DNA of 44,319 nt from Bacteroidota bacterium (lineage in GTDB: Bacteria > Bacteroidota > Bacteroidia > NS11-12g > UBA9320), in NCBI GenBank assembly GCA_024645005.1, contig JAHEGS010000004.1, positions 1 to 44,319 on the forward strand, read 5' to 3'. The number at the start of each line of letters is the position of its first letter. The first letter of the stretch is position 1. The position numbers and the translations under genes are program-made. The notes below the pieces were generated by a model. It was not told the DNA's origin. It worked only from the letters and a program-made list of their open reading frames with translations, and did no database searches. Shown piece after piece: positions 21,651-44,319 of this stretch.

Positions 21651-22405
21651 TGGACTTTTTCAAAAATTTTAAATATGCGAATTATGTTTTTGGTGCAGAA
21701 GAAGGCACAAAAGTCTCTGGAGATTTAATCACATCACTTTTTACTAATGTAGCACAATATGTTGATGTTATTGATAGTGTTAAGGTAAATAATGCTTATC
21801 ACACAAAATATTATATTCAAGAAGGTGAAAGACCAGATCAAGTATCTATGAAAATTTACGGTGTACCATTTTACCACTGGACATTTTTTATGATGAATGA
21901 TAATCTAAGAGAACAAGGATGGCCTCTTACTTATAGACAACTTGATGAAGTAGTAAAGAGAGATTTTCCTCATACAGTATGTACTACAACAGATGATTTA
22001 ACTGGCCACTTTTTGCCAGGAGAAAGAGTTATTGGTTCTACATCTGGCGCTCGTGGTAATATTTTAAGAAGAAAATTGGATTTAGGTCAACTTATAGTTG
22101 AGCAAATTGGTTCTACTTCATTTTCACCTCGCGAGGTAATAACTTCAAGTAACGTAAGTGCCACTAGGACACAATCTGTATTGGTTGATACAGTAATAGA
22201 ATATAATGCACTACACCATTATGAAAATGCTGCAGGTGATTATGTTGATGTTGACCCTAGGGTTGCTAATCCAGGAATATATACTGCTGTTACTAATTAT
22301 GATCGGTATATAAAACAAAACGATGCACAAAAATTGATTAATGTTATAAAACCAGATAACGTAATCGAAATTGTGAATTTATATAAACAGGCTTTGAATA
22401 GTTAA
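21650..22405 (+). CDS. 53: gp53-like baseplate wedge protein
   Basis: YYIQEGERPDQVSMKIYGVPFYHWTFFMMNDNLREQGWPL. Confidence 0.8.
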   Translation: MDFFKNFKYANYVFGAEEGTKVSGDLITSLFTNVAQYVDVIDSVKVNNAYHTKYYIQEGERPDQVSMKIYGVPFYHWTFFMMNDNLREQGWPLTYRQLDEVVKRDFPHTVCTTTDDLTGHFLPGERVIGSTSGARGNILRRKLDLGQLIVEQIGSTSFSPREVITSSNVSATRTQSVLVDTVIEYNALHHYENAAGDYVDVDPRVANPGIYTAVTNYDRYIKQNDAQKLINVIKPDNVIEIVNLYKQALNS

Positions 22406-26533: not shown

Positions 26534-26535
26534 TC

Positions 26536-27990
26536 ATGGCTGAAAACGAAGATGATTTAGGACAAACACTTGAAGATGGATTTAAAGATCCACAAAATGT
26601 TTTTCCTAGAGTAAAGTATTATAACAAGCAATCTACCAACTTTGCTGCTAGAAATATCCAAAACAATGATTTATATATTGGTGGTGGTGACGTTGCTCTT
26701 AGTTTAGGGTTACAACCCCATACAGATACACAGTATCCTATGAATCAGGTTAGAGAAACAGTTTCTGGTCATGTAACAGAAATTGATGATACTCCTGGTG
26801 CTGAGAGAATTTTATTTAAACATAAAACTGGTGCTGGTGTTGAGATGAGAGCTGATGGTACCGTTATCATCAGTTCAACAAATAATACTGTTCAGATTAC
26901 CGGTGGAGATCAAAAGGTCATTGTTGAAGGTGACGGTGAAATAGTATATCATGGTAACCTTAAATTAACAGTAAACGGTAATTTTGATTTAAATGTAGGT
27001 GGTGATTTTAATGTTACAACCGGTGGTGATAATGTTGAAACTGTAAAAGGCAGTTATAAACAAACTGTATCAAATTTCCATGAAACAACAGTGACAAAAA
27101 GTAAATCACAATTTGTTGGTAAAAATACATCAAGTACTGTTTTGGGTGATAATAATACAACAGTAAAAGGTGAAAACAATAATTATAATCAAGGGGATTA
27201 TAATCTTCACGTTGGGTATTTTGATCCGGAAACTGGTGAGGATATTGGAACACTTCGAATATCAGCTACTGATGAAATCATGATGTCTGCAGCAAATATG
27301 AACGGAATGGCTACCGATATGACGTGGGTGGGAGATCATGGTGATATTGGTGGTGATAATATAGTTATGCACAATTATAATATGTACACCGGCCATTCTA
27401 TAGATGTTGGTGATACACTTACAGTTCCAACCATTTATAATGATACTCAAGTTACCAGTGGTCATATGAATATTCCTGTTGTATATGGTGATTTGCAAGG
27501 TACTGCAACTCAGGCGATGGTATCCAATCAAGCAGGACTTCATCCATCTAGTGGTGCTCATGCCGGCGCGGGATATGGTTACACAGCTGCAACTGACACT
27601 ACAGCAGATATACCAGTTGATCCATTTTTAAGAACAAGAGTAAATACCGCAATTGCGGATGAATACCTATATAGAAGTGATAGAGGTATTTCAGATGTGA
27701 ATATTGATTTTGGTGGAGAAATGCTTGATACTGTAGATAAATCTAGACCTTATGATAATATTAGCCAACGTAAATTAACCACACCTGAAATCAGATCAAA
27801 ATTAAGAGATCCAAATACACTTCGAAATGAAACATTTATTAATGCTCAAATTTTGGAAGGTAAATTATCAGCTGATTATATTAATCCTGTACCACCATTT
27901 GGATACGGACGTGTTGTAAATAAAGGAACAACTCCAATACGTGGTTCTGCCACATTACCTAATAGTGATATCACAAAGCGAGTTATATAA
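26536..27990 (+). CDS. gp5 C-terminal-like beta-helical spike protein
   Basis: VNGNFDLNVGGDFNVTTGGDNVETVKGSYKQTV...KGENNNYNQGDYNLHVG repeats typical of the gp5C/VgrG spike. Confidence 0.7.
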   Translation: MAENEDDLGQTLEDGFKDPQNVFPRVKYYNKQSTNFAARNIQNNDLYIGGGDVALSLGLQPHTDTQYPMNQVRETVSGHVTEIDDTPGAERILFKHKTGAGVEMRADGTVIISSTNNTVQITGGDQKVIVEGDGEIVYHGNLKLTVNGNFDLNVGGDFNVTTGGDNVETVKGSYKQTVSNFHETTVTKSKSQFVGKNTSSTVLGDNNTTVKGENNNYNQGDYNLHVGYFDPETGEDIGTLRISATDEIMMSAANMNGMATDMTWVGDHGDIGGDNIVMHNYNMYTGHSIDVGDTLTVPTIYNDTQVTSGHMNIPVVYGDLQGTATQAMVSNQAGLHPSSGAHAGAGYGYTAATDTTADIPVDPFLRTRVNTAIADEYLYRSDRGISDVNIDFGGEMLDTVDKSRPYDNISQRKLTTPEIRSKLRDPNTLRNETFINAQILEGKLSADYINPVPPFGYGRVVNKGTTPIRGSATLPNSDITKRVI

Positions 27991-28590
27991 ATGGCCATAT
28001 TTCAAGTTGCAAATGAATACAATCCTGAATTTCAATCTAAAATAACTAATAAAACTAAGTTAGCTATTGGTATTACTATGGCTAAATTTTTAGGTGGTTA
28101 TGGTTCTGCAAGTAATATGAATCACGTTTCTGATGATAATGAACGAATAAAAATTGCAAAACAGTATACAATGCAAGCGAATGCCATGAGAAAAATAATG
28201 ACTAATCAGGCTAAATTTAATGAATATAGACTGGTTGTTGCTGAAGGCCTTTATAAAAAATCACAAAATGAAACTATTGAACTAGATAGTATTAATGAAT
28301 TAAAAAGTAAAGGTAGGGCAGTTGTTTATGAACTACGGGATTTAAATGGACAGATTGCGCATGAAAAAACATTTGATCTTGCAGTTTATTGGAAAGATAA
28401 TTTAGAATTTGAAAAAATGATTCTTTCATACGATTCATATAATCCAGATCGATCAATCGTGACTCAACTTATTTTGGTTATGCCTGAAATCATTCCTGCT
28501 TGGACGGTGTCATACAAAAACGAAATTCAAACAATGTATAATAATAATGTGCAAACCAATGGAGAATTGGTTGAGATTTTGAATAAATAG
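27991..28590 (+). CDS. Hypothetical structural-region protein
   Basis: 199-aa ORF between the spike and gp25, head-to-tail with its neighbours. Confidence 0.55.
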   Translation: MAIFQVANEYNPEFQSKITNKTKLAIGITMAKFLGGYGSASNMNHVSDDNERIKIAKQYTMQANAMRKIMTNQAKFNEYRLVVAEGLYKKSQNETIELDSINELKSKGRAVVYELRDLNGQIAHEKTFDLAVYWKDNLEFEKMILSYDSYNPDRSIVTQLILVMPEIIPAWTVSYKNEIQTMYNNNVQTNGELVEILNK

Positions 28591-28605
28591 TAACAGGGAT
28601 AAAAA

Positions 28606-29046
28606 ATGGCCAAAGCTTTTTCAATTGAGGACGGAAATCAGAGTACTGCTACTCTAGTAGGGGCTAGAGCAAGATCGTACACTGATATAGATCTAGCTTT
28701 TATTAATAAAACTTCTGGTGATTTATATAAGAAAACAGAAGCAGCTGCTGTTAAACAGGCTGTAAAGAATCTTTTAATGACTGGCGAATCTGAAAAACCT
28801 TTCAATCCGTCATTCGGTGGTAATTTAGGAACTGCTCTTTTTGAATTAGATACAGAATATGATGCTAGAGATTTATCAGATAGAATTTTTAACACTATTG
28901 AATTGCATGAACCAAGAGCTAGAGTGTTAAATATAGATATTAAAACTATATCTGATAGAAACCAGTTGAGTGCTACAATTCAATTTGAAGTAGTAAATGT
29001 TGGGGAAACAGTTACTATAGATATAAACCTAACGAGGCTTAGATAA
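28606..29046 (+). CDS. 25: gp25-like baseplate wedge (lysozyme-like gp25/GPW family)
   Basis: YTDIDLAFINKTSGDLYKKTEAAAVKQAVKNLLMTGESEKPFNPSFGGNLGTALFE. Confidence 0.88.
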   Translation: MAKAFSIEDGNQSTATLVGARARSYTDIDLAFINKTSGDLYKKTEAAAVKQAVKNLLMTGESEKPFNPSFGGNLGTALFELDTEYDARDLSDRIFNTIELHEPRARVLNIDIKTISDRNQLSATIQFEVVNVGETVTIDINLTRLR

Positions 29047-29047
29047 A

Positions 29048-30886
29048 ATGGTACATGTTAATGCATCTGATCTAGATTTTGAACAGATTAAAACTAGATT
29101 AAAAACATATCTTAAACAAAAACCAGAATGGACAGATTACGATTTTGAAGCTTCTGGTTTATCAAATATTTTAGATGTTTTATCATATAACACACATTTA
29201 AATGCATTAACAGCTAATTTTGCAATTAATGAATCATTTTTAAATACTGCACAATTAAGAAGTTCAGTTGTTTCCCATGCTGAAAATTTAGGTTATGATA
29301 TTAGATCAAAAACTGCTGCAAAAGGACTTGTAAATCTTTCTGTTAATTTAAGCGGAGTTATTAACAGACCGGCAGCAATATCTTTACCAGAAGGTGCATC
29401 ATTTACAGCACAAGTTGATGGTACATCATATACGTTCAGAACGATTACTACTTATATCGCCAAGGATGTTGGTGGAGGAATTTATAAATTTACAACAAAT
29501 GCAGGTTCATTTGATATTCCAATATACGAAGGGACCTCAAAAACCAAAACATTTTTTGCGCCAGATAAATCTGAAAGACAAATTTATGTCATACCAGATG
29601 AAAATTTAGATAAAAGTACAGCCGTTGTAAGAGTATATGATAATGCAACATCTTCCAATTTTACAAATTATTCTCCGATTAAAGATGCTGTACAGGTAGA
29701 TGCAAATTCAGCATTATATACAATTAGGGAAACACCAAATGGATATTATGAGTTAAATTTTGGAGATGGTATTTCGTTTGGAAAATCCCCAGATGCTGGA
29801 CAAAAAATAGTTGTATCATACCTTTCAACTAAAGGCCCGCTTGCAAATACTGCTAGTGGATTTATACCATCAACCCAATTAATTGTAAACGGTATTAGTT
29901 ATAATATAGCTACTACGACTGTGGCAGTTGCTACAAGTGGTTCTGCTAAACAATCTATAGAATCCATTAAACAACTAGCTCCTTATGCCTATGCATCACA
30001 ACAAAGATTAGTTACTTCACTAGATTATAAAGCAATTATTCAAAGTAACTTTACTGATGTTCAAGATGTGGCAGTTTGGAGTGGTGATCAAAATGTTCCT
30101 GTAGATTACGGTAAGGTTTTTGTTTCACTTAAATTTGCAAACGGTACTCCAGCATCTACACAAGAGGCAATTAAAGGTAGTATTATAACCAACTTTACTA
30201 AAAATCTTTCTATTATGTCAATCAAGACACAGTTTGTAGATCCTGTTAACATGTTCCTCGAATTAAACACGGAATTTAATTTTGATCCAGCATTAACAGG
30301 TGATACTGTACAAGCAACAGAAACACAAGTATATAATTTCCAAAATGCTTACCTAAATACAAATTTAAATAAATTTGATTCAGTGTACCGCAGATCAGTT
30401 CTTGCTTCAGAATTGGATTCCTTATCGCCTGCTATATTATCATCTAGAGTTGAAGTAAAAGCCCAATTAAGATTTGTGCCTACATTAAATGTTTCAACAC
30501 AACATGAATTAAAATTTCCAATGCGAATTGCTGTACCAGATGATATTGAAAATACCGTTATATCTACTACGTTTGAATATAGTGGTGTGATTGGTCAATT
30601 AAGAAATAAATTAAGCAGCAGAACATTACAAATATATGATCTGGATGGTAATATCTTAGCAGACAATGTTGGAGAATATAATCCTACAACAGGTATTGTA
30701 AATATCATTGGATTTAATCCTGATAGATTATTATTTGGTGTTAACTATATTAAATTATCTGTGAAACCAGAAAATGAAGCTACAATAAAACCTTTAAGAA
30801 ATTATGTATTTTCAATTGATGCTGCAAAGTCTTCATCTACTGCAATTATTGATCGACAAACAACAACGTTGGAAATAAATGTCTAA
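29048..30886 (+). CDS. 6: gp6-like baseplate wedge protein
   Basis: LKTYLKQKPEWTDYDFEASGLSNILDVLSYNTHLNALTANFAINESFLNTAQLRSSVVSHAENLGY. Confidence 0.9.
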   Translation: MVHVNASDLDFEQIKTRLKTYLKQKPEWTDYDFEASGLSNILDVLSYNTHLNALTANFAINESFLNTAQLRSSVVSHAENLGYDIRSKTAAKGLVNLSVNLSGVINRPAAISLPEGASFTAQVDGTSYTFRTITTYIAKDVGGGIYKFTTNAGSFDIPIYEGTSKTKTFFAPDKSERQIYVIPDENLDKSTAVVRVYDNATSSNFTNYSPIKDAVQVDANSALYTIRETPNGYYELNFGDGISFGKSPDAGQKIVVSYLSTKGPLANTASGFIPSTQLIVNGISYNIATTTVAVATSGSAKQSIESIKQLAPYAYASQQRLVTSLDYKAIIQSNFTDVQDVAVWSGDQNVPVDYGKVFVSLKFANGTPASTQEAIKGSIITNFTKNLSIMSIKTQFVDPVNMFLELNTEFNFDPALTGDTVQATETQVYNFQNAYLNTNLNKFDSVYRRSVLASELDSLSPAILSSRVEVKAQLRFVPTLNVSTQHELKFPMRIAVPDDIENTVISTTFEYSGVIGQLRNKLSSRTLQIYDLDGNILADNVGEYNPTTGIVNIIGFNPDRLLFGVNYIKLSVKPENEATIKPLRNYVFSIDAAKSSSTAIIDRQTTTLEINV

Positions 30887-31946
30887 TAGTGAATCATTAA
30901 GAGATTATAATCGGCTTGGAGTAAACTTTAGAAAAAGTGTAGTTCAAGAAGTACTCCCGGAATATTATCAAACCGAATATCCAAACATAATTACATTTTT
31001 GGAAGGGTATTACGATAACTTAGATTCTGATGAAATGCCAGGTGGCATTATTAATGAATTACAAACTATTAGAGATTTTGAAGATACAGATTTAACTAAA
31101 TTAGATCTTTTGTTTAATGAACTTGCCTTGGGTATAGCACATGATAAAGTTGCCATGCCAAGAGAAGCTATTAGAAATTTTGGTAATTTCTTTAGAGTAA
31201 AAGGGACTATATTCTCTGGTGAAGGATTTTTTAGAGCATTTTTTGAAGAAAATGTTGAGATTATTTACCCCAAGGATAGACTATTTACTATTGGTTCATC
31301 AACAATCGGTACTGATGATGGTTATATTACACAGGATGGTGCTGTAAACCAAATATTTTCCGTTTTAATTAAATCTCCAATTTCATTTACATTTTGGGAA
31401 GAATTATATAGAAAATTTGTACATCCATCTGGTTTTTACTTATCTGCTAAAGTTGCATTAGAAGGTATACCAGACCCTATAGAAATTATAACTAATGAAT
31501 CTGTTCCAGATCCTTTTAAAAATATTGCCTTTGTAACAGAAACTGCCTTATTAGATAAACAAACGGGTGCTGGTGAAGCAAGTCATATAAATAATTATTG
31601 GACAGGAAGTGCTGTATCTATTAGTGGCCATATTAATTTACCACAATTTAGAACAAACCCTTATAGATTAATAGAACACTTTACAGATTCAGCCGTCGCT
31701 GCAAGTGTAGGTAATAGAGTTTATACTTCACTTGCTAATTTAGGATCTGCTTACAAAGACCTAAAAGAGCTAACGGATTACGGAATCCACTGGTCAAGCG
31801 CATTTGATTCCAATGGTACTGGGTTATCATTTGATAATTCATATGAAAAACTGGATCAACAAGAGTTTGAAACATATGCTTCTTATACTGCTGGTCCAGG
31901 TAATTATGTAGCTAATGGTTATATTCCGTTAGTTATTAAATCATAA
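30879..31946 (+). CDS. gp7-like baseplate wedge initiator
   Basis: FLEGYYDNLDSDEMPGGIINELQTIRDFEDTDLTKLDLLFNELALG...FFRVKGTIFSGEGFFRAFF; position after gp6. Confidence 0.6.
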   Translation: MSNSESLRDYNRLGVNFRKSVVQEVLPEYYQTEYPNIITFLEGYYDNLDSDEMPGGIINELQTIRDFEDTDLTKLDLLFNELALGIAHDKVAMPREAIRNFGNFFRVKGTIFSGEGFFRAFFEENVEIIYPKDRLFTIGSSTIGTDDGYITQDGAVNQIFSVLIKSPISFTFWEELYRKFVHPSGFYLSAKVALEGIPDPIEIITNESVPDPFKNIAFVTETALLDKQTGAGEASHINNYWTGSAVSISGHINLPQFRTNPYRLIEHFTDSAVAASVGNRVYTSLANLGSAYKDLKELTDYGIHWSSAFDSNGTGLSFDNSYEKLDQQEFETYASYTAGPGNYVANGYIPLVIKS

Positions 31947-31960
31947 TTGGTTAAAAACAT

Positions 31961-31968
31961 TATAAATA
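31961..31968 (+). promoter_or_regulatory. T4-type late promoter TATAAATA
   Basis: Exact TATAAATA in the intergenic gap before the ORF at 31996. Confidence 0.7.
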
Positions 31969-31995
31969 TAGAGTAACTCTACTGTAGGATTGAAA

Positions 31996-33663
31996 ATGGC
32001 TAGAAAAATTATTAACACAGGTGCTTTTGCAAATGACGGAGCTGGTGATGATCTAAGAACTGGTGCAACTAAAATTAATGATAATTTCTTGGAGTTGTAT
32101 TCACAACTTGATAATATTTCTTTGGCTACTAGTGGTGTTGCTGTAGCAAATGGTATTGGTTATGGCTTTTATGGAATTATGTTCGATGGAGCTACATCTG
32201 ATTCATTTGGTACTTCTACAAGATTAGTACCAGAAGATCCAACACAGATTAATACTATTACATTAAGAGATAGTAGTGGTGAGGTTGCATTTGTAGATGA
32301 TATTGGTAGAATTATTAACCGGAATTATATTCTGAACATTAAAAATAATGGTTACCAATTAAAAGATGAAAATGAAATTTTACAGTTAATTTATGATAAT
32401 TCAATTGACTCAGCTCGAGCTGTAGCCATCACAATTGACTCTGCAGAATTATTGGCTGCTGTTGATAGTGCATATGTTCAGTCTAGACAAATATTTGGCA
32501 CACCTGGCGAATTTCAACCATATATCGATAGCGCCGTAAATGTATTAAGAAGTGATCATGATAGCGACATTACTGTTAACAGATTTGATATTGATTTTCT
32601 ACTCGGAAACCAGGCGGCATTAAATACTGCAGATGTTACAGAAGCTCCTTCTAATCTTTATTATACCAAAACTCGGACAGATTCAGATATCAGTCAGGCA
32701 TTTGGGAGCATTTCACAAAACTTAATTCCGGCAGATGATAGCACATATGACTTAGGTTCTCCCACTAATAAGTGGAAAGATTTACATCTTTCAGGTAATA
32801 CAATTTTCTTAGGTAATACATCAATTACTAATGATGGTACCAATATTAATTTTGGTACTCCTATTAATGCTGAAATTGTTGTTACTAATTCTATGGATCT
32901 TGGATCAAATGTGATACAATCTTCGACCAATAGTCTTAGATTAAGACCTGCAGGTGGTCGTGATGTAAGATTGGAAACCATTGATGGTGTTCCTATATTT
33001 ACGGCAAGTACTGATGGTGATGTATATATTGGTGATTCTCCAGGTACCAATGCGTTATTACCTGGTAATAAAGGTTGGTTATATTTAGGTGTTAATACAG
33101 AGGCAGCCAGATCTGTTAAAATGAATGAAAGACATGGTCTAATACATTATAATGACAATCACAATACAATAGAGGTCTATGCTGATAATCAGTGGGATAT
33201 CTTAATGACTGAAACATTAGTTGATAGTGCTATTGTTGCAATTATTGATAGTGATCATGTTAAAGCTAGACAAGTGTCATCGCATTATTTACATTTTGGA
33301 TATGACCCAGACTTAATTGGTCTCCAATCTGACATTAAAATGCGCCAGACTGATGGGGTGACAACAACTACTGGTTATCATCTCCCATTACCAGGTAAAG
33401 TAACTCATATTACTTTTGATTGCACCTGTACGGCTGTTGGTAGTGGTGGCCAAACATTTAGCATTGAATTATGGAAAGCCGGTGTTGCAACTGGTTATAT
33501 TGCAACTTTCGAGCTTACCGGCGGTCCAGGTAGTGTCTCCTCTTCCGTAGGAGTTGATGAGCCGTTTGGGCCGAATGATGGGTTACAACTTAGGATTAGT
33601 CAGGACAGCGCTTTAACAACAAATAACATTATGGCTTCACTTAGAATAGAAGAAACATTATAA
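31996..33663 (+). CDS. Fiber/baseplate appendage-like virion protein
   Basis: MARKIINTGAFANDGAGDDLRTGATKINDNFLELYSQL N-terminal module plus DSA-rich repeats. ATG at 31996. Confidence 0.6.
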   Translation: MARKIINTGAFANDGAGDDLRTGATKINDNFLELYSQLDNISLATSGVAVANGIGYGFYGIMFDGATSDSFGTSTRLVPEDPTQINTITLRDSSGEVAFVDDIGRIINRNYILNIKNNGYQLKDENEILQLIYDNSIDSARAVAITIDSAELLAAVDSAYVQSRQIFGTPGEFQPYIDSAVNVLRSDHDSDITVNRFDIDFLLGNQAALNTADVTEAPSNLYYTKTRTDSDISQAFGSISQNLIPADDSTYDLGSPTNKWKDLHLSGNTIFLGNTSITNDGTNINFGTPINAEIVVTNSMDLGSNVIQSSTNSLRLRPAGGRDVRLETIDGVPIFTASTDGDVYIGDSPGTNALLPGNKGWLYLGVNTEAARSVKMNERHGLIHYNDNHNTIEVYADNQWDILMTETLVDSAIVAIIDSDHVKARQVSSHYLHFGYDPDLIGLQSDIKMRQTDGVTTTTGYHLPLPGKVTHITFDCTCTAVGSGGQTFSIELWKAGVATGYIATFELTGGPGSVSSSVGVDEPFGPNDGLQLRISQDSALTTNNIMASLRIEETL

Positions 33664-33673
33664 GGATTATAAA

Positions 33674-35023
33674 ATGCCAGCAATTGTAACTGATTCACTT
33701 AAAGCTTTATTAGCTAGACAATTTTTTGATCAATTCGCAAACGCCACTGCCAGATATTATATTAGTATTGGAAGATCAGAGCAATGGGATAGTTCAGATA
33801 ATGTTCCTACACCAATAAACACACCAGGGCAAATTGAAGCTGTAAGAAACCAAATGCAGTCTGTGAAACGTGTTCAGGCTACTTCTTTAGTTGTTCCAAG
33901 AACAACTTGGTCAAATGGTGGTATTTATTCCCAGTATGATGATACACAACAAGGGTATCCTAATCCACCATATTATGTCATAAACGAAAATAACAATGTT
34001 TATATTTGCTTAGAAACTGGTAGAACCAATGCGGGTGTTGCAGTACCATCAACAGTAGAACCATCTGGTTCAAATAACGACCCTTTTAGAACTGCTGATG
34101 GGTATGTGTGGAAATTCTTATTTACTATAAGTGCATCTAGAGGCAATTCCTTTATGTCATCTAATTTTTTGCCAGTGCAAAAACAAGGTCCCACAGATTC
34201 ATCTTCAACAGGTATTCAATTAAAACAAAGAGAAGTTCAAGATACTGCAGTTAGTGGTGCCGTTACTTCTGTAATTATTACGGATACTGGTGCTGGTTAT
34301 ACATCTGCACCAACAGTTACAATTACAGGCACAGGTGGTTCTGGAGCTCAAGCAATTGCATACATAGACTCTGCTACTGGAACTCTATCAAAAATTTCTA
34401 TGAAAGATAGTGGTACCACACTAACTCTTGGAAGTGGTTACACAAAGGCGGCAGTCGCGATTACCGGTGGTGGTGCAACAACAGATGCAACTGCCCGAGC
34501 TGTTTTAGGCCCAGATTCTGGTATTGGTGCTGATTCTCGTGTGGATCTTAAATCTTCTTCAATTATGTTTGCCACAACCATCGAGGGTACTGATAGTAAT
34601 TTCATTATAAATCAAGATTTTAGACAGGTATCTCTTATTAAAGATATTAGAGATGCTAATGGTAGTGTTTACACAGCAGAAACTGGTAATACTCTGAAGA
34701 AAATGACACTAGCAACTATTACTAATGCATTTACAAGAGATAAAAAAATCAGAGGTCAAACTACACTGGCTGAAGCCTATATAGATAATATAGACAGTAA
34801 CGAATTATATTATCATCAAACTGACAGTACCGGGTTTGTGGCTTTTCAAGATGGTGAAATTATTGCAGAAACAAATGGGCTTGGTGAAGGTATTAGTGAT
34901 TCATCACTTATTCTACCACTCACCGATCCGGCAACAGGTGATATCCTTTATATAGATAATAGAGCACCTATTTTGAGATCGAATGTCCAGTCGGAAGACA
35001 TTAAAGTAATTATACAGTTCTAA
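33674..35023 (+). CDS. 8: gp8-like baseplate wedge protein
   Basis: LKALLARQFFDQFANATARYYISIGRSEQWDSSDNVPTPINTPGQIEAVRNQMQSVKRV. Confidence 0.8.
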   Translation: MPAIVTDSLKALLARQFFDQFANATARYYISIGRSEQWDSSDNVPTPINTPGQIEAVRNQMQSVKRVQATSLVVPRTTWSNGGIYSQYDDTQQGYPNPPYYVINENNNVYICLETGRTNAGVAVPSTVEPSGSNNDPFRTADGYVWKFLFTISASRGNSFMSSNFLPVQKQGPTDSSSTGIQLKQREVQDTAVSGAVTSVIITDTGAGYTSAPTVTITGTGGSGAQAIAYIDSATGTLSKISMKDSGTTLTLGSGYTKAAVAITGGGATTDATARAVLGPDSGIGADSRVDLKSSSIMFATTIEGTDSNFIINQDFRQVSLIKDIRDANGSVYTAETGNTLKKMTLATITNAFTRDKKIRGQTTLAEAYIDNIDSNELYYHQTDSTGFVAFQDGEIIAETNGLGEGISDSSLILPLTDPATGDILYIDNRAPILRSNVQSEDIKVIIQF

Positions 35024-35032
35024 GGGTTAAAA

Positions 35033-38000
35033 ATGGCTATACAATATACCGAACAGTTATTTTCCACAAAATATAGAGATGATTTTAGGGATAGTGATCA
35101 CTATCACAGAATACTCTTTAACAGTGGACGTCAGTTGCAAGCCCGAGAGCTTACACAAATGCAAACGATTATTCAACGCGAGTTGGAAAGGTTTGGTAGG
35201 AACATCTTTAAAGAAGGTGCAGCAGTTGTTCCAGGTGGTATGACTATTAATAGTGCATATGAATTTGCAAAATTAGATACTTCATCAAATACATTACCTG
35301 GTAATACCACATCAATGATTGGCGACACATTCGTTGGACAAACATCTGGTGTTCAGGCACAAATTCTTCAAGTGGTACCAGTTGATGGGGCCGATCCTGC
35401 TACAGTATATGTAAAATATACAAATTCACTTTCTGGAACACCAGGCGCTACGGCTATCAGATTTACTCCAGGTGAAGATATTGTTGGTAATGCAAGTTCA
35501 GTATCACTTACTGTTCAAACAGTTAATACATTAGCTAATCCTGCTATTGGTAAAGGTACTATTGCTTCTATGCATAGAGGTACTTTCTTTACACAAGGAC
35601 ACTTTGTACAAGCCGATAATCAAAAAATTCTTGTTTCAAAGTATTCATCAACTCCTACAGAAACTGTAGGGTTTGTAGTAACACAAGATGTTGTTACAGT
35701 TGATGATACAAATGATCTTTATGATAATCAAGGGCTATTACCTAACCTCACATCGCCAGGTGCAGACAGATATAGAATTACTCTAACACTTGCAATTAAA
35801 TCACAAGTTCTTAGTACCGACACATTTGTTTATTTTGGTAAGATTAAGGACGGTGTTCTAGTTGAAGCAGTTACTGGTACAGAAGATTATAATAAAATTC
35901 AAGATTTTAATGCTCTTCGTACTAAAGAAATCAATGGTGATTTTATTAAACAAGCATTTAAAATTGAGTTTGATGAACACGATTCAGATATTACAAAATT
36001 GACTATGGATATAAGTGCAGGTGTTGCCTATGTAAATGGTTTTAGAGCATCAAAAGGAGCACCTTTTAAAATTGATGTTAACAAAGCACTTACTACAACC
36101 ACATTAAATGCAGAAGCAATTGCTGCATCATATGGTAACTATGTTTTATCAACAACTTTTGTTGGTTTACCAAATGTTGACACATTCGAATTACAGAATA
36201 TACGAGATACCATAGGCCATGGTGGTTCGACAATCGGTACTTGTAGAGTTAAGGCCGTAGAAGAAGATGGCGCGAATTACAGATTTTATCTAATGGATAT
36301 TAGAATGAATCCTGGTGAAACATTTAGAGATGCTAAATCTATTGGCACCAGTGGAGATCAATACTTTAATCCGATTTTAGAGAATGGTATTGTAGTACAA
36401 AAAGATGCTGTTAATAATAATATGCTATTCCCGTTCCCACAAGAACGTGTAAAATCAATTACAGATGTAAGTCTTACAACGCAACGTCGTGTGACTGCAA
36501 CAACTGATGGTTCTGGTAATGCTTCGTTACCGACATTGGGTGCTACTGAAGTATATTCAACTTCAACTCAATGGATTTTTGCAGAAGTTGGTGGCGGTGG
36601 TGCCACATTTACACCATCCTCTATTACCGGTGTTGGTACTAACTCAGCCTCTATTACGGGCGGCCCGGCGGGTGTTTCAATTGAGGCCTTGGTACATATT
36701 CAAAAGGACGGCATTTTAAGAACAAAGACTCTTACAAATACAACTAAAACAGCTACTATTGCAACTCCTTCTAATGGTGCTAGATATATTGATTTAGGTA
36801 AAGCAGATATTTATGATGTTACTAGAATTAGAGCAACTGATTCTAATGGTGCTGATTTATCTAGTGATTTTCTTTTAGATAAGGGCGCAAGAGATAATTT
36901 TTATGAAACAGGAAGACTTCTCCTTAAAGGTAATGCATCTGTACCGAGTGGAAGTGTTTTTGTAAGATTCAATTATTTTACACATTCTCCTAATGGCCAT
37001 TACTTTGCTGCTAGTTCATACGGCGGAATTGATTATGGTGATATTCCTGTCCATACATTAGGTAACGGTACAGAAATTGCTTTATATGATGTGTTAGATT
37101 TCAGATCACGTAAAGATGATACTAATGCTAACTTTAGTGCAGGTACTGCTAGAGTCAATGAAGTTCCTATTAACACAAGCCTTATTACTGCTGATACTGA
37201 ATATTATCTTCCAAGGTTTGACAAATTAGTCATTGATGAGCAAGCTAAAATCTCATTATTAAATGGTACTCCTTCACTTAACCCTCAATTCCCACCAATT
37301 CCGGCTAACAGTTTGGAATTGTATAATGTTAAATTTAATCCTGGGACAACAGATGAAAAAGATTTAACAATTCAGAATATTGAAGCCAAAGGTTTCACTA
37401 TGAGGGATATTGCTAAACTTGAAGAAAGAATTGAAAATCTAGAAGAATTTACAACTCTAAGTCTTTTGGAAAATGATGCAAGTAGCTTTGCAGTATTTGA
37501 TTCTATTGGTAATGATAGAACTAAATCTGGTTTCTTAGTTGACAACTTTATTGATCATGTTGCATCTGATACACAAAATACAGAATATAGAGCCGCTATT
37601 GACCCTAGAGAACAAATTTTAAGACCTATATTTAATGAAGAATCAATTAACTTAAGATATGATTCTTCACTTTCAACAAATGCTATTCTAAAAGGTGATA
37701 ATGTATACATTGATCATACAGATGTTCTTTATATCGATCAACCTCTTGCATCCGGCACAGAAAATATTAACCCATTTGCCGTAATTACTAACAGAGGTGT
37801 TGTTAATCTTTCACCTGGTTCTGATAACTGGAAAGAAGTTGTCTTTGTTGCAAATAGAGTTATCAATGGTGGTACTAGATTAGATACTAGACAAGCACTA
37901 CTTTGGAATAACTGGAACTGGAACTGGCAAGGTAACAGAATTAATAATTTAAGGGTCGGACAAACACTAGCATCAACAGATACTGGTTGGCAGCGCCGCG

Positions 38001-40102
38001 GCCGCGTTGCAACTAGAAATACTGTAGTTGATACTGTAGTAAGAGATGAAGTTGTAAGAGAACAAGTCGGAGATCGTGTAGTAAATGTTGCATTGATCCC
38101 ATTTATGAGATCACGAAAAATATTCTTTAAGGCTGAAGGTATTGCTCCTAATGTTAGAATGTGGGCATACTTTGATGGTACAAGAGTAGATAACTGGGTT
38201 CGTTCAGAATCATTCCAAAGAATGGCCGTTCAGCCAGATGATTATGGTAGCAAATATAATAATGCTACACAACACCCAGAGGCACCTTCAGCACTATTCA
38301 GTAATGCCCAAGGTGAGGTTGAAGGCTCATTCTTCATTCCTAATTCACCTGCTCAAAGATTCAGAACTGGCCAAAGAACATTTAAACTAATGGACATTTC
38401 TGCAAATAATGATGATGATGCAATTTCAATTGCCTCAGCACAATTTACATCAACTGGTATTTTAGAAACTCGTCAAAGAGACATCTTATCTACTAGGGTA
38501 ATTACTGTTGCTGGTACTTCTAGGCAACACAGAATGGTGTTTGATCCACTGGCACAATCATTCTTTGTGGATGAAGATAATGGTATGTTTATTACAAAAG
38601 TAAGAGCATATTTCCAATCAAAAGATGGCACTGTGCCAGTATCATGTGAGATTAGACCAATGGTTAACGGACAGCCATCATCTGACACAACTGTACCTGG
38701 TACCGTAAAATTCTTACCACCATCGTCTGTTAATACATCTTCAGATGCGTCTGTCGGTACAGATTTTGTATTTGATGAGCCAGCATATCTACTTCCTTAT
38801 ACAGAATATGCAATTGTTCTGAAAGCAGAATCAACAAGATATAATGTTTACATTGCAGAAACAGAACAGTTTGTTTTGGGTTCAACTGCTAAAAAGGTTT
38901 CAAAACAACCAACACTTGGTTCCTTATTTAAATCACAAAATGCTTCAACATGGGAACCTGCTCAGACTAAAGATTTAATGTTCCAAATATATAAAGCTAG
39001 CTTTAATACTGCAGGAGCTACAGTTGTATTGGAAAATACAAATGTACCGCAACAATTACTAGGTAATAACCCATTCAGCATTGCAGGTAATTCAAAAGTT
39101 GTTACTGTAACTCAAGCAAACCATGGATTTGATTCCGGTGACACTGTAACATTTGGTGGTTTGGATTCTGCTACAAACTATGGTGGTGGTATTCTTGGAA
39201 CAGCCATACTTGGCAATCGTAGTGTTATTTCACTTGATGAAAACCAGTATAAGTTTAATTCTGGAACTACCAATTCATCTAGCAATACATTTACATTTGG
39301 TGGTGATAATGCATTAGCATCAAGAAATTATATGTTTGAAACTGCAGTACCATTTATCGAAAACATGATACCACAAGAAACAAACTTAAATATTGTGGGT
39401 AAATTCACTTCAGGTAAATCACTTGCTGGTGCAGAGACTCCATATATCAAAGACGCTACAGATACAGATTTGGATATGAGAGAAAATAATTTCTTCCCTG
39501 TTGTAAAAATGATAGCAAGTAGAGGTGCAGAAATTTCTGAAATGGGTGGAGCAAGATCTGCTACCATTACAGTAAATCTTACAACTGCAGATCCGAATGT
39601 AAGTCCAGTATTAGATATGCAAAGGTCATCATTATGGGTGATTCACAATAATATTGACTTCCAGGACTCTGCTGGCTCACTTGGTATTTTATCAGGTACT
39701 AGAAACTTACCAATTAACTATGCTGATGAAACAGATCCTACTGGTGGTTCACACATTGCAAAACACATTGTGCGGCCTGTAACTTTAGAAAATGCAGCAA
39801 TTGGGTTAAAGATCTTGCTTGGTGCTAACGTACCTCAAGAGGCAGCATTTGATCTTTATTATAAGGCTGTTGAAGAAGATGTAGCATTTGAAGATACAAA
39901 TTGGGTTTATATCGCGCCGGAAAATAATTTACCTACTGATGAAAATCCAAATATCTTTAGAGAATATGAATATTTAATCGGAGGACAGAGTGGGTTAAGT
40001 AGTGCATTCACTAAATTCACTTTGAAAATTGTAATGAAATCTACTAATGCGGCTAAAGTGCCAACATTTAGAGATCTCAGAATTATTGCATTGGCGGTAT
40101 AA
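35033..40102 (+). CDS. Large virion structural protein (DUF4815-like)
   Basis: YTEQLFSTKYRDDFRDSDHYHRILFNSGRQLQARELTQMQTIIQRELERFGRNIFKEGAAVVPGG. Confidence 0.75.
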   Translation: MAIQYTEQLFSTKYRDDFRDSDHYHRILFNSGRQLQARELTQMQTIIQRELERFGRNIFKEGAAVVPGGMTINSAYEFAKLDTSSNTLPGNTTSMIGDTFVGQTSGVQAQILQVVPVDGADPATVYVKYTNSLSGTPGATAIRFTPGEDIVGNASSVSLTVQTVNTLANPAIGKGTIASMHRGTFFTQGHFVQADNQKILVSKYSSTPTETVGFVVTQDVVTVDDTNDLYDNQGLLPNLTSPGADRYRITLTLAIKSQVLSTDTFVYFGKIKDGVLVEAVTGTEDYNKIQDFNALRTKEINGDFIKQAFKIEFDEHDSDITKLTMDISAGVAYVNGFRASKGAPFKIDVNKALTTTTLNAEAIAASYGNYVLSTTFVGLPNVDTFELQNIRDTIGHGGSTIGTCRVKAVEEDGANYRFYLMDIRMNPGETFRDAKSIGTSGDQYFNPILENGIVVQKDAVNNNMLFPFPQERVKSITDVSLTTQRRVTATTDGSGNASLPTLGATEVYSTSTQWIFAEVGGGGATFTPSSITGVGTNSASITGGPAGVSIEALVHIQKDGILRTKTLTNTTKTATIATPSNGARYIDLGKADIYDVTRIRATDSNGADLSSDFLLDKGARDNFYETGRLLLKGNASVPSGSVFVRFNYFTHSPNGHYFAASSYGGIDYGDIPVHTLGNGTEIALYDVLDFRSRKDDTNANFSAGTARVNEVPINTSLITADTEYYLPRFDKLVIDEQAKISLLNGTPSLNPQFPPIPANSLELYNVKFNPGTTDEKDLTIQNIEAKGFTMRDIAKLEERIENLEEFTTLSLLENDASSFAVFDSIGNDRTKSGFLVDNFIDHVASDTQNTEYRAAIDPREQILRPIFNEESINLRYDSSLSTNAILKGDNVYIDHTDVLYIDQPLASGTENINPFAVITNRGVVNLSPGSDNWKEVVFVANRVINGGTRLDTRQALLWNNWNWNWQGNRINNLRVGQTLASTDTGWQRRGRVATRNTVVDTVVRDEVVREQVGDRVVNVALIPFMRSRKIFFKAEGIAPNVRMWAYFDGTRVDNWVRSESFQRMAVQPDDYGSKYNNATQHPEAPSALFSNAQGEVEGSFFIPNSPAQRFRTGQRTFKLMDISANNDDDAISIASAQFTSTGILETRQRDILSTRVITVAGTSRQHRMVFDPLAQSFFVDEDNGMFITKVRAYFQSKDGTVPVSCEIRPMVNGQPSSDTTVPGTVKFLPPSSVNTSSDASVGTDFVFDEPAYLLPYTEYAIVLKAESTRYNVYIAETEQFVLGSTAKKVSKQPTLGSLFKSQNASTWEPAQTKDLMFQIYKASFNTAGATVVLENTNVPQQLLGNNPFSIAGNSKVVTVTQANHGFDSGDTVTFGGLDSATNYGGGILGTAILGNRSVISLDENQYKFNSGTTNSSSNTFTFGGDNALASRNYMFETAVPFIENMIPQETNLNIVGKFTSGKSLAGAETPYIKDATDTDLDMRENNFFPVVKMIASRGAEISEMGGARSATITVNLTTADPNVSPVLDMQRSSLWVIHNNIDFQDSAGSLGILSGTRNLPINYADETDPTGGSHIAKHIVRPVTLENAAIGLKILLGANVPQEAAFDLYYKAVEEDVAFEDTNWVYIAPENNLPTDENPNIFREYEYLIGGQSGLSSAFTKFTLKIVMKSTNAAKVPTFRDLRIIALAV

Positions 40103-40308
40103 TGAGAAGATATGCTAGAGTAGAAGGTTCATCAAGCCTTATAAGAGATCTTAGAAATAATGCCGTCCTAAATATGGATAATGCAGCCATAGAGAAAGCC
40201 AAACAAGCTAAGATCTTAAGAAAACAAAAAGAAAAAGAGCTTGATGATCTTAAACAGGATGTGCTAGACATAAAAGAAATGCTTAACAAAATAGTAGAGA
40301 GATTATAA
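40102..40308 (+). CDS. Small coiled-coil protein
   Basis: KAKQAKILRKQKEKELDDLKQDVLDIKEMLNKIVERL; 1-bp stop/start overlaps on both sides. Confidence 0.6.
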   Translation: MRRYARVEGSSSLIRDLRNNAVLNMDNAAIEKAKQAKILRKQKEKELDDLKQDVLDIKEMLNKIVERL

Positions 40309-41441
40309 TGGCTCGTAAAATTCTTGTAGATTTAAGTAACTCCCTAGGGACATTCGTTCAAAAAACAAATGCTCTATCGAATTGGGTGGGAGACCTAGAT
40401 GATTTTAATCCTAGATTTGGTGCCAGTGGTACTGATTCAGATATTGTGAGTGTTATCAACTTTTTGGATTCACAATTGCAAGGTGTGCTTGGAGACAGTG
40501 CTAACTTCGCATACATGAGTGTTGACAGTGCAGACTTTAATGCACTTAGAGCAGAAAGTGCATATATTAACACACTGAATTTTGATAGCATATATGGTGG
40601 TGATATTCAAGCAGATAGTATTACTGCAAACTTTTTAAGAGCAGATAGTGCGTATATCACACACCTTTCAGTTGATAGTGCATATATTGATTCTGCAACA
40701 ATTGTTCGGTTACGTGGTGACAGTATTAGTTATAAGTATGCAACATTCAATCAAATTGATTTGGAATCAGACAGACTGATTTTTGATGAGTGGTCAATCA
40801 CAGAGGAATCTGCTAGTGGCCAAACATATTTCCCAGGTGATCCAGGCAAAAGATTTTTAATCAATCATAATAATCCAGTGACTGGTGTGACTCCTGTTTT
40901 ATGGTTTGATTCTAACCAAACTATTCACAGTGATACAAATATCCTACCTGTTTATAATCTTATTGATTCTTTCGGAGTATATGACAGTACAAGTCATACC
41001 GTCGGTTCTTATGCCAGAACATGGAATGAAATGCACGCTATTGATTTTATTGGTACTGCATTAAGAGCAAAATGGGCTGACTTGGCTGAAAATTATCTTT
41101 GTGATGAGGAACTTGAGGTTGGTACTGTAGTTGCAGTCGGTGGATCAAAAGAAATTACTAGAGGCAGTTATTTGAATGCACACTCGGTTATTGGGGTTGT
41201 TTCAGAAAAACCTGCTATTCTCATGAACCAAGATCTGATTGCTGGTAGTGATGAATATGTTGTACCTGTAGCTCTTAAAGGTAGGGTTAAGGTTAAAATC
41301 TCTGGTGCTGTCACAAAAGGTGATAGATTAGTTGCTAAGGAAAACGGTACTGCAGTAGCAGATAATAATAAAAACTCTTGGTCTTTTGCAGTTGCCCTGG
41401 AAGATGCATTATTTGATACAGTTGAAGCTATTATTCTCTAA
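40308..41441 (+). CDS. Tail-fiber-like protein with DSA(Y/D) repeats and conserved C-terminal domain
   Basis: SVDSADFNALRAESAYINTL...RADSAYITHLSVDSAYIDSA repeats; C-terminal LRAKWADLAENYLCDEELEVGTVVAVGG. Confidence 0.65.
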   Translation: MARKILVDLSNSLGTFVQKTNALSNWVGDLDDFNPRFGASGTDSDIVSVINFLDSQLQGVLGDSANFAYMSVDSADFNALRAESAYINTLNFDSIYGGDIQADSITANFLRADSAYITHLSVDSAYIDSATIVRLRGDSISYKYATFNQIDLESDRLIFDEWSITEESASGQTYFPGDPGKRFLINHNNPVTGVTPVLWFDSNQTIHSDTNILPVYNLIDSFGVYDSTSHTVGSYARTWNEMHAIDFIGTALRAKWADLAENYLCDEELEVGTVVAVGGSKEITRGSYLNAHSVIGVVSEKPAILMNQDLIAGSDEYVVPVALKGRVKVKISGAVTKGDRLVAKENGTAVADNNKNSWSFAVALEDALFDTVEAIIL

Positions 41442-41946
41442 ACAAGAATAAGTCTACTGGTACACATAATCTAAAATTACTTGTTGGTCTGACCGAGTGA
41501 TATAAAAAACTTGGAAACATAATTACTTGACCTTCCACGGGCTTGTAAATTTTTGATTCAAATAAATTTCTAAATGATAAATCGTAACCACGTGATGCAA
41601 AATGTCGTGGATCATATAATACTAATTCTCCATCATCTGCCGTCACTAAATAAAATATAGCAGACAGCCAAGATCCGGAGTGAGTATGATATTCCATACT
41701 TTCATCCTTTGAATATCTATTAACCCAAGCTGTTAATTTATAATCACTATAATAGGATAATCCGTGATTTAGTGTTTCATTTAGATATTTGTCAAAATAT
41801 TTTAAAGATATTTTTTCAATACCTTCTGTAATATTCTGTAAACTTTCTTGGATTAGATCTTCGGTAACAGTAAATTCATCTACCATTACGTCTGTAGGCC
41901 AACACTTATTTAAGCCTAATTCAAATGTCGTAAAATTCTTTTTCAT
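41431..41946 (-). CDS. 2OG-Fe(II) oxygenase
   Basis: MEYHTHSGSWLSAIFYLVTADDGELVLYDPR...EGQVIMFPSFLYHSVRPTSNFRLCVPVDLF has an HxH/D...H...R cupin layout, PF13759-like. Confidence 0.75.
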   Translation of the reverse strand: MKKNFTTFELGLNKCWPTDVMVDEFTVTEDLIQESLQNITEGIEKISLKYFDKYLNETLNHGLSYYSDYKLTAWVNRYSKDESMEYHTHSGSWLSAIFYLVTADDGELVLYDPRHFASRGYDLSFRNLFESKIYKPVEGQVIMFPSFLYHSVRPTSNFRLCVPVDLFLFRE

Positions 41947-42319
41947 AATATTTTCTCACATCAGGAACCATGCCTTCCATAGGAATTGGAAATTTTATGC
42001 TATCAAATAATAAATTATAGATTGCAGGTTCCTCATCATATGTTTTAAAGAATGGATCATTACCAGCTAGTAGCATTGGGTCTCTTAATAATTCCCAAAA
42101 ATCTTCATTAAAATCTACACTAATCCAATAGGCATAACAAAAAGCCACAAAGTATGATTTAGCTGGATATAACCACGTATCTATTTTTTCTTCAAAGTGT
42201 CTTATGGTATCATATTCAACATTCATTTCTTCGTAAACAATGTCTACTCTGTTTAAATCATCATCATGGTCTTTATTTAACCTATGATATAGTTCCTGTC
42301 TGATTCGCCATTCTTGCAT
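41921..42319 (-). CDS. Hypothetical protein
   Basis: 132-aa ORF overlapping both neighbours in the minus operon. Confidence 0.5.
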   Translation of the reverse strand: MQEWRIRQELYHRLNKDHDDDLNRVDIVYEEMNVEYDTIRHFEEKIDTWLYPAKSYFVAFCYAYWISVDFNEDFWELLRDPMLLAGNDPFFKTYDEEPAIYNLLFDSIKFPIPMEGMVPDVRKYYEKEFYDI

Positions 42320-42683
42320 ATTTTTTTATCGCTTTCATTAGAAAATATCTTTGAATTGAATTGTGTAAAAATGTGAATCTGCATTCCAATTTATAAACTG
42401 GTTCTGAAAATGTATATGAGTCTTCTATAACATATTTCACAAAGGGGTCATAAAAATCTATATGCTTAGATTTAAAACACACATGAGGATCATCATTAAA
42501 AAATCCATGACCTTCACAACTTCCAACAGTTTCAATACCTTGACTTATTAGGTAAAGTACATGGGGCCAAATCTTCTTTTCTATATTTATTTTAAATTCT
42601 GGATGTGTAACTGGTAAAGAATATCCTGTATATTCTTCGCCTATATGAGTAAAAGGCATAATTTTATTGTGCTGTTTTTCCAT
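42282..42683 (-). CDS. Small protein with SCEGHG motif, conserved-phage type
   Basis: QGIETVGSCEGHGFFNDDPHVCFK. Alternative start ATG near 42659 after the preceding stop. Confidence 0.5.
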   Translation of the reverse strand: MEKQHNKIMPFTHIGEEYTGYSLPVTHPEFKINIEKKIWPHVLYLISQGIETVGSCEGHGFFNDDPHVCFKSKHIDFYDPFVKYVIEDSYTFSEPVYKLECRFTFLHNSIQRYFLMKAIKKYARMANQTGTIS

Positions 42684-43566
42684 AATAATCCAACAATCCT
42701 TTATATCCGTTACAAGAATTATTTAGGTCTTTTACATACCGATAATGCTCTGTTAAACAATTACCCAAATAGTTACATGATTTGCATATTGGGCTTAAAT
42801 TGGTTTTTTCATCATCAGCCCATTTTAAATATTCACTATAACTATCTAGTTCTAAAAAATACTCTTTATCATTTTTATCAAATTCTAAAACACCAAATTT
42901 ACCATTTGGAGTAATATAAACATGATCATCTGAAAAGGCATTATATTCATTTGATAAGGATTCTTTTATTTTAATTTCATTTATAAATTCAAATCTCTTT
43001 TTTATAGGAGAATCTAACCACTTAATTACAAAGTCTTCAAATTGTTTATGTGTCACATTATGTGCATTTGCTTGATTAATAGAGTATGGTTTTATCTCTA
43101 CAGATTGAATTGCTGAACACATATTTAATTCTGAGATCATACGATCAATATCCATATTAACTACTTCTGGTGATGCTAGTACTAATACAGCAATTGGTAC
43201 TGGAGACATAAGCATGTTCTGAAAAACTTTATCACTTTTTTCACGTGCAGTAAAATCATATGATACAGATAGATATACATCGTTATCAAAGAATCCTTCG
43301 TGTATCATAGACATATTCGTAATAATGTTAATTTCACCATTGTAAAATTTACGAATAGAATCCTTTAATCCATAGAAATAATTTTTCTTTAACGCACCTA
43401 TTTCACCACCATATAAATCGATATACTCAATTTTAGGTATTTGAGATAATAAATTTTCAAGTTTTGATAACTCTATCTTTTTCGTGTCATTTAGCTGCTC
43501 TTTCGTTAAATAACAAAAGTCACATTTAAAATTACAGAAATAAGATGGGTTAATACTGATTTTCAT
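42664..43566 (-). CDS. Radical SAM protein with C-terminal SPASM-like Cys cluster
   Basis: CNFKCDFC (CxxxCxxC), YGGEIG, and C-terminal CKSCNYLGNC...C. Confidence 0.75.
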   Translation of the reverse strand: MKISINPSYFCNFKCDFCYLTKEQLNDTKKIELSKLENLLSQIPKIEYIDLYGGEIGALKKNYFYGLKDSIRKFYNGEINIITNMSMIHEGFFDNDVYLSVSYDFTAREKSDKVFQNMLMSPVPIAVLVLASPEVVNMDIDRMISELNMCSAIQSVEIKPYSINQANAHNVTHKQFEDFVIKWLDSPIKKRFEFINEIKIKESLSNEYNAFSDDHVYITPNGKFGVLEFDKNDKEYFLELDSYSEYLKWADDEKTNLSPICKSCNYLGNCLTEHYRYVKDLNNSCNGYKGLLDYYGKTAQ

Positions 43567-44319
43567 TAATGTATTCCGTAACTGCTATCTCTAATTTATT
43601 TGATTTAATAATATCTGGTGCTAGTTGTTTCATGTGATAACAGTGTTCTTCTACCATTCTATGTTGTTTCATATCCTTTATTGTCTTTTTACAACCATTA
43701 CAGATCTGAAACATAGGACAAGTATAACAGGCTTGTTTTAGACTATTTAAATTATATTCATTTGCTAACGGTGTAAAAAACTCACCAGCCATTTCTTTAT
43801 TAAAATCAATAGACATTTCCTTATCGTCACCAAAAGCACCACAGGAATAATAATCGCCCTCTGGTTGTATTGTCCTAATATGTGAATCACACCCTCTTGT
43901 TTGTGGGCATATCGTAGCTTCACCACGCAGTCTTTTCATCATCTGCTGTGTGTTATGTTCCCAATCAGCTAAACCTGCTTTCCAAATATCAATATATTTT
44001 TCATATATCTTTGAAAGTCTATATGGTTCACCCTGATCACCAGAAGCCATAGCATAATTTATTTTACAGACCACATTCATCCGTTTTGCTAATTCTACTG
44101 TCTGTATTACAGTATCTTCATTTTCTTCCGTAATGACAGCAATAAATGATGGTCTGTAACCACAATATTTTAATACGGCATTTGAACATTTCCAAAAATC
44201 TTCTTCTGTAAATACTGAGTAATCACCTTTTAATCTTCCGTTACCATATTGAAATGAAGTTGCAATACCTACTCTATGATGTGTAAAGACTTCCATCCAT
44301 TTATGTGGATTTTTATAGA
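43550..44319 (-). CDS. Radical SAM/SPASM protein, C-terminal part (truncated by the right window edge)
   Basis: The frame stays open past the listed ATG (YKNPHKW-MEVFTHHRVG). CPQTRGCDSHIRTIQPEGDYYSCGAFGD...CYTCPMFQICNGCKK...HCYHMK is a SPASM-type cluster. Confidence 0.7.
   Translation of the reverse strand, partial: YKNPHKWMEVFTHHRVGIATSFQYGNGRLKGDYSVFTEEDFWKCSNAVLKYCGYRPSFIAVITEENEDTVIQTVELAKRMNVVCKINYAMASGDQGEPYRLSKIYEKYIDIWKAGLADWEHNTQQMMKRLRGEATICPQTRGCDSHIRTIQPEGDYYSCGAFGDDKEMSIDFNKEMAGEFFTPLANEYNLNSLKQACYTCPMFQICNGCKKTIKDMKQHRMVEEHCYHMKQLAPDIIKSNKLEIAVTEYINENQY

Follow-up and report, generated by a model that had tools for sequence, protein, structure and literature searches.

A radical SAM operon of tailed phages and the conserved Cys-His-Ser tag linked to it

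Radical S-adenosylmethionine (rSAM) enzymes of the SPASM type mostly act on peptides or proteins. In the His-Xaa-Ser (HXS) system (HxsA, HxsB, HxsC and HxsD), reportedly described by Haft and Basu, a protein with a C-terminal His-Xaa-Ser run is accompanied by two or more rSAM enzymes. The darobactin/dynobactin and ranthipeptide maturases (DarE, DynA and PapB) have the rSAM/SPASM architecture, and the anaerobic sulfatase-maturating enzymes (anSMEs) are protein-modifying enzymes of the same architecture. Several rSAM genes occur together in Campylobacter phages CP220 and CPt10 (PMC2853527), rSAM genes lie inside host-recognition cassettes of pelagimyophages (PMC7029224), and a T4-like ocean genome contains 12 rSAM genes (PMC5332604). 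Where the accessible parts of these three reports suggest a role at all, it is a metabolic or Fe-S one, and they name no substrate or tag. Here, we analyze an rSAM operon at the end of a 44,319-nucleotide phage contig (JAHEGS010000004.1; the window), which was studied as the entire contig 187 (C187) of a metagenome-assembled genome and ends at position 44319. The probable function of the operon is the post-translational modification of a C-terminal tag on a protein that the phage itself encodes; this protein would most likely belong to the virion and lie near the tail fibers.

The C-terminal tag and its linkage to rSAM genes

In relatives of the window's operon, the gene that follows the rSAM gene rSAM-A encodes a protein of 124–364 aa with a variable body, and its last 16 residues read C-H-x-S-C-H-x-S-C-H-x-S-R-G-R-R. 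A DNA-level scan for this tag pattern alone, which was blind to rSAM genes, yielded at least 120 viral loci and 10 genome contigs, one of which is an out-of-frame chance match. A decoy of the same composition, in which Cys and His are swapped, yielded no locus. Among the matches listed, an rSAM gene of the operon is found in 122 of the 129 loci with a C-terminal tag. Linkage was measured on the 76 listed tag genes flanked on either side by 1.5 kb or more, and a same-strand rSAM gene is located within 150 bp of the tag gene in 53 and within 1.5 kb in 70. Five of the other six have an rSAM gene further along the same strand, and the contig of the sixth (L226) ends after two operon genes. In the reverse direction, 60 of the 77 rSAM-A loci fetched with the window's rSAM proteins contain the tag. 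The 17 loci without a tag in the fetched stretch belong to a second architecture, which consists of a split operon with a further rSAM family and often contains two adjacent tagged proteins; in five of these records the tag lies outside the fetched stretch, and the remaining ones are fragments.

The tag is more conserved than the protein that carries it, with a mean top-residue frequency of 0.87 in the tail versus 0.49 in the body. At the positions left free in the search pattern, Ser is present in 159, 138 and 154 and Gly in 152 of the 172 distinct sequences among the matches listed. The tag codons are freely mixed between synonyms (TGT/TGC and CAT/CAC near half each), and the amino acid identity thus appears to be maintained rather than to reflect recent spread. 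A near-invariant tag on variable bodies would fit a shared enzyme set that acts on one epitope of different proteins.

The tag is present in the operon of all four cultured phage genomes examined, in each case in a gene annotated as "hypothetical protein":

gp72, Burkholderia phage FLC6
gp170, Agrobacterium phage Atu_ph07
gene 289, Sinorhizobium phage Phosso
PA10_00065, Pseudomonas phage pPa_SNUABM_DT01

A tblastn search of cultured phages with a 25-aa tag query missed even known carriers, the query being too short. Bacterial genomes rarely carry the tag: it occurs in 2 of 290 genomes of the phylum that includes G313 and G314, and in 1 of 101 genomes of the order to which G315 belongs. It is observed on three contigs from bacterial assemblies (L247, L249 and L250), two of which are from Bacteriovoracaceae/Bdellovibrionaceae. 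The neighboring genes look bacterial in L247 and perhaps in L249, as in a chromosomal version or an integrated phage.

A six-frame search of the window identified no CHxxCHxx-type C-terminus, the two pattern matches being in short out-of-frame stretches. An earlier reading of the DNA alone (the sequence-only reading) had likewise seen no precursor in the window, and had suggested a modification pathway resembling that of ribosomally synthesized and post-translationally modified peptides (RiPPs), with a small precursor open reading frame (ORF) possibly beyond the edge. A small precursor ORF in the window was rejected after the six-frame search. Other contigs of the assembly were rejected as a source of a precursor or of the remaining phage sequence, since neither the tag pattern nor an rSAM-A match is found there. 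The suggestion of a gene beyond the edge is borne out in the relatives, which carry the CHxSCHxSCHxSRGRR protein upstream, but modification and its target in this phage are unproven, and the candidate is a 124–364-aa protein with a folded body instead of a small ORF. Because the nearest relatives in gene order (L004, L010 and L242) carry the tag, the phage of the window presumably also encodes it beyond the contig edge.

Operon genes and enzyme families

The sequence-only reading had described five overlapping minus-strand genes as one operon. The five ORFs are indeed present within 41431–44317, and neighbors overlap by 17, 20, 38 and 26 nt in the 5′ to 3′ direction. These genes and their surroundings are as follows:

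43550–44317, minus strand: rSAM-C, radical SAM/SPASM enzyme (255 aa seen, open at the contig edge)
42664–43566, minus strand: rSAM-D, radical SAM enzyme with a twitch-like C-terminal cluster (300 aa)
42282–42683, minus strand: SCEGHG protein, putative accessory gene (133 aa)
41921–42319, minus strand: conserved 132-aa operon protein (fam3; PHROG 20737, 1.1e-36)
41431–41946, minus strand: 2-oxoglutarate (2OG)-Fe(II) oxygenase, last operon gene (171 aa; PF13759, PHROG 81)
40308–41441, plus strand: tail-fiber-like structural protein (PHROG 19602 tail fiber protein, 1.7e-13)
20268–40102, plus strand: T4-like baseplate and tail genes (PHROG baseplate tube cap, wedge and hub subunits)

The window contains the 3′ end of a much longer phage operon, and the contig stops inside rSAM-C. 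The 40308–41441 gene is convergent with the operon and marks the tail/host-recognition region. The opposite contig end (261–8176, plus strand) contains a glycan cluster of ∼10 overlapping genes, including a nucleotide-sugar epimerase, two family-25 glycosyltransferases and three interrelated glycosyltransferase-like genes. Three phage tRNA genes (Arg-TCT, Met-CAT and Leu-TAA) are located at 9744–9899 and 12971–13054.

Searching IMG/VR with each of the window's rSAM proteins identified 37 loci (first scan) and 120 loci (rSAM-D), and the operon is found in more than 100 IMG/VR contigs. Seven jumbo-phage records with Agrobacterium, Sinorhizobium, Burkholderia and Pseudomonas hosts also carry it, and rSAM-A, rSAM-C and rSAM-D occur in exactly the same 7 of 50,697 records. 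Clustering of the ORFs from the fetched loci reveals a same-strand order that recurs in dozens of phages. Four of the five window genes keep this order, much more often than chance would allow; very few relatives have the fifth, the SCEGHG gene. In the relatives closest by gene order (L004, L010 and L242, each covering part or all of the order), the 5′ to 3′ order is cupin, rSAM-A, tagged protein, the conserved proteins fam4 and fam6, rSAM-B, B12-rSAM, 2OG oxygenases, rSAM-C, rSAM-D, 132-aa protein and 2OG oxygenase. The operon start in relatives adjoins a tail-fiber gene, and a fiber gene related to that at 40308–41441 (fib16) immediately precedes the operon in other phages. The sequence-only reading, with two rSAM enzymes and one oxygenase, fell short of the full gene set: complete operons have between three and five rSAM enzymes of the SPASM/twitch type, a cupin, several 2OG oxygenases and, in many cases, a B12-rSAM enzyme.

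Variants of the operon contain additional genes. In L107 (410–1179), L169 and L188, two adjacent tagged proteins have unlike bodies and the same tag. A block with a cytidylyltransferase-cupin protein stands beside the split-type operon in L107 (12532–16684) and L109; this block also encodes a protein that resembles FkbM methyltransferases by eye and has no Pfam match. A flavin tryptophan halogenase gene is located inside the rSAM operon of L103 (8885–10222; PF04820, 1.3e-72, Pfam being tested in this locus), and its family is also found in L105, L114 and L115. Burkholderia jumbo phage FLC6 (L265) has two adjacent dihydrofolate reductase genes (gp77 and gp78) inside the operon.

The rSAM-A, rSAM-B and rSAM-C enzymes contain the CxxxCxxC motif and SPASM-type cysteines. 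The rSAM-A protein of a relative scores 28.5 bits against the SPASM model TIGR04085 (cut-off 27), and the NCBIfam families that rSAM-A matches best are those of peptide maturases (TIGR04083, DynA, DarW and DarE). The B12-rSAM enzyme matches a B12-binding domain (1.1e-6) and a KedN5-like C-methyltransferase (8.6e-24).

In the window's rSAM-C, ∼88 N-terminal residues, among them CxxxCxxC, are lost at the contig edge. The sequence-only reading had named the lack of a radical SAM core in the upstream part as a result that would speak against it; CxxxCxxC is present in the N-terminus of 98–99 of 101 rSAM-C homologues, including the nearest relatives, which start with MDLIIKPTELCNFKCTFC, and reads CNFKCTFC in the 89% identical L002 protein. 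The remaining part of rSAM-C matches PHROG 1802 (4.6e-30) and, just under the cut-off of 27, TIGR04085 (7.5e-6, 26.3 bits). Its Cys set (CX10GX4C ... CX2CX5CX2C ... C) is invariant in the 101 homologues and agrees with the SPASM signature used here (CX9-15GX4C - gap - CX2CX5CX3C - gap - C), the last pair being X2 in place of X3. The SPASM part matches anSME in the PDB (E 0.0027).

The rSAM-D protein combines CxxxCxxC with a C-terminal CX2CX5CX14C cluster, and all seven Cys residues are invariant in 102 of 102 homologues. It matches PHROG 1802 (1.5e-28) and, just under the cut-off of 29.5 bits, the Pfam family PF04055 Radical_SAM (E 2.9e-6, 28.0 bits). With only four C-terminal Cys residues, rSAM-D does not conform to the SPASM signature and would be better called twitch-like than full SPASM. 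Thus, of the two consecutive SPASM-like enzymes in the sequence-only reading, the edge protein is SPASM and the second is twitch-like.

The oxygenase at 41431–41946 was correctly named from the sequence: it passes PF13759 2OG-FeII_Oxy_5 (1.4e-14, 54.7 bits versus a cut-off of 27), matches PHROG 81 (2.6e-23) and occupies the same position in many relatives. The 132-aa protein is found in 93 loci with 12 invariant residues in 50 sequences. Its structure model is confident (predicted local distance difference test score (pLDDT) of 91), no solved relative was found, and a role as a scaffold or in recognition would be speculative. The SCEGHG protein was proposed earlier as a pathway member, but its gene is rare and probably accessory. 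Its close homologues are limited to L014/L092 (one contig), and no match was obtained in Pfam, NCBIfam or cultured phages; it was rejected as a core component on account of its rarity and the lack of a cultured-phage homologue. A longer SC[EQHG]GH family (fam14) occurs in ∼20 loci, for example L008 (9283–9987) and L088 (8896–9621). Because their positions in or beside the operon differ, the sequences suggest that SC[EQHG]GH genes are mobile or stand-alone accessory genes. The motif bears what we take to be a loose resemblance to the SCSGR motif of TYW3.

Comparison with described systems

The phage tag contains H-x-S three times and in this respect resembles the C-terminal run of the HXS protein. 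The phage repeat differs in being C-H-x-S with a period of four followed by RGRR, and the phage system is phage-encoded, has more enzymes and includes oxygenases. The best scores in a relative are 24.5 bits for rSAM-B and 26.6 bits for rSAM-C, against HxsB and HxsC cut-offs of 370 and 267.9 bits, and rSAM-D reaches 16.1 of the 267.9 bits for HxsC. No NCBIfam family, TIGR03979 (HxsA) included, is matched at E 0.01 by the tagged proteins of L010 and L119, and a genome search with TIGR03979 returned sub-cut-off repeats only. HXS membership was rejected on the enzyme cut-offs and the missing HxsA match, and the phage operon would work like a RiPP-type rSAM system outside the described families compared.

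The DarE, DynA and PapB maturases are among the best matches of rSAM-A and rSAM-C, but the phage enzymes score 22–44 bits against cut-offs of 340–650. The candidate substrate also differs, being the tail of a folded 124–364-aa protein, and no peptidase or transporter is seen. The likeness of rSAM-C to anSME lies in its SPASM part, and the last tag unit, C-H-x-S-R, presumably bears a loose resemblance to the sulfatase C-x-(P/A)-x-R site. However, the tag shows no Pro/Ala preference at this position, and no sulfatase is seen in the operon. The CP220 module differs by its sugar-nucleotide and amidinotransferase genes, and no CHxS tag is found in the 100 kb of this phage that were checked. A search of the open-access literature, with bioRxiv preprints outside its scope, identified no published description of this enzyme-substrate pairing, and a search for the tag letters gave nothing relevant among the matches listed.

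The proposed pathway and competing explanations

The AlphaFold2 model of the tagged protein contains a compact α/β body (mean pLDDT 86) and a low-confidence tail (54–57), as would be expected for a displayed tip. The body is itself conserved as a family. No PDB match was obtained for it by profile or by fold, and its structural role is therefore not settled by fold. Its best viral-model matches are the Atu_ph07 member of its own family and uncharacterized large proteins of Myoviridae sp. ctijX18. The tagged gene follows a tail-fiber-like gene (fib16) in many loci, and the tagged protein may thus reside in the virion near the tail fibers. In PMC6102473, Atu_ph07 virion proteins identified by mass spectrometry are reported in "CDS 170-215", the first gene of which is the tagged gp170; this is a weak hint at a virion protein, given that all three ranges in that paper are 46 genes wide and the edge may be that of a gene window rather than of detection.

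Since the rSAM gene set travels with a near-unchanging Cys-His-Ser tag, unusual chemistry on the phage's own particle protein is probable. In the proposed pathway, the tagged protein would be synthesized first. The rSAM enzymes and oxygenases would then act on the Cys/His/Ser repeats through cross-linking, oxidation or methylation, and the 2OG oxygenases and the B12-rSAM enzyme could add hydroxyl and methyl groups. The finished protein would be assembled into the particle, where the modified tip may aid receptor contact or stability. Action of the rSAM/SPASM enzymes on the tag repeats appears most likely because such enzymes typically modify peptides or proteins and because the best matches of rSAM-A are peptide maturases. 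A more specific version has roughly even chances: tailed phages that infect various groups of hosts would possess a dedicated RiPP-type assembly line, made up of three to five rSAM enzymes of the SPASM/twitch type and several 2OG oxygenases, in many cases with a B12-rSAM enzyme, and this line would turn the (CHxS)3-RGRR tag of a virion protein into a cross-linked or oxidized tip with non-standard receptor-binding or armoring chemistry.

Besides the uniform width of the Atu_ph07 ranges, several observations weigh against a modified tag. The putative core is near-invariant and the "leader" is a large folded domain, unlike in typical RiPPs. No peptidase/protease or transporter/exporter family was recognized among the scanned operon genes, many families of which have no match at all, and all NCBIfam equivalog matches are far under the curated cut-offs. 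The search pattern itself imposed the six Cys/His and three Arg residues on the scan-derived set, where they do not count as conservation, although the family fetched through the rSAM proteins also shows these positions. Finally, neither the window contig nor its assembly contains a tagged gene.

Four other explanations were weighed. It is unlikely that the tag works unmodified, binding a metal or cofactor through Cys/His ligands or through a heme site of the CX3CH type, and that the enzymes build the cofactor or act on another molecule. Three CH pairs at a period of four are plausible metal ligands, and rSAM-C has weak matches to the heme-modifying rSAM families AhbD and NirJ. However, the conserved Ser residues and the basic RGRR end are not needed for metal binding alone, rSAM-A most resembles peptide maturases, and the tag was not found apart from the enzyme operon on long enough contigs among the matches listed, the early-ending L226 being the one exception.

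It is quite unlikely that the product of the operon is a small molecule, a modified nucleotide or a glycan with an anti-restriction or metabolic role and that the tagged protein is a bystander. SPASM enzymes mostly have peptides or proteins as substrates, as is generally known, and the linkage of the tag to rSAM genes is near-complete among the matches listed. The dihydrofolate reductase genes of FLC6 would suit such a product, but of the phages checked only the Burkholderia phage showed them, whereas the tag and rSAM-A, rSAM-C and rSAM-D are common to all four cultured phages. The glycan cluster at the left end of the window also points to this explanation, as do neighboring genes assigned to nucleotide metabolism by published annotators (PMC8066314, PMC11898562) and the rSAM modules with sugar-nucleotide genes in Campylobacter phages (PMC2853527).

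A true RiPP, in which the tag is cut off and the free peptide is a toxin, signal or host-directed agent, is very unlikely. The basic C-terminal RGRR and the low-confidence, probably flexible tail of the model resemble a processed core, but the body is folded and conserved as a family, no protease or exporter was recognized in the operon, and the tagged gene lies close after tail-fiber genes. A viperin-like antiviral or superinfection-exclusion function is scarcely credible and was rejected: rSAM-D and rSAM-A have weak PADLOC and NCBIfam matches to prokaryotic viperins, and viperin is the nearest PDB match of rSAM-D (E 0.04), but the matches mainly cover the generic radical SAM core (29.1 bits against the NF038283 cut-off of 180) and, to our knowledge, viperins lack SPASM/twitch clusters and are not grouped with a tagged protein.

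Modification of the tag is the preferred explanation, and the tag offers a specific candidate target for phage rSAM clusters, on record since 2010 with no substrate named. If this explanation is true, phages apply RiPP-like chemistry to structural proteins that they encode. Host recognition or particle chemistry would then gain a new layer, and the phages would be a source of radical enzymes yet to be tested.

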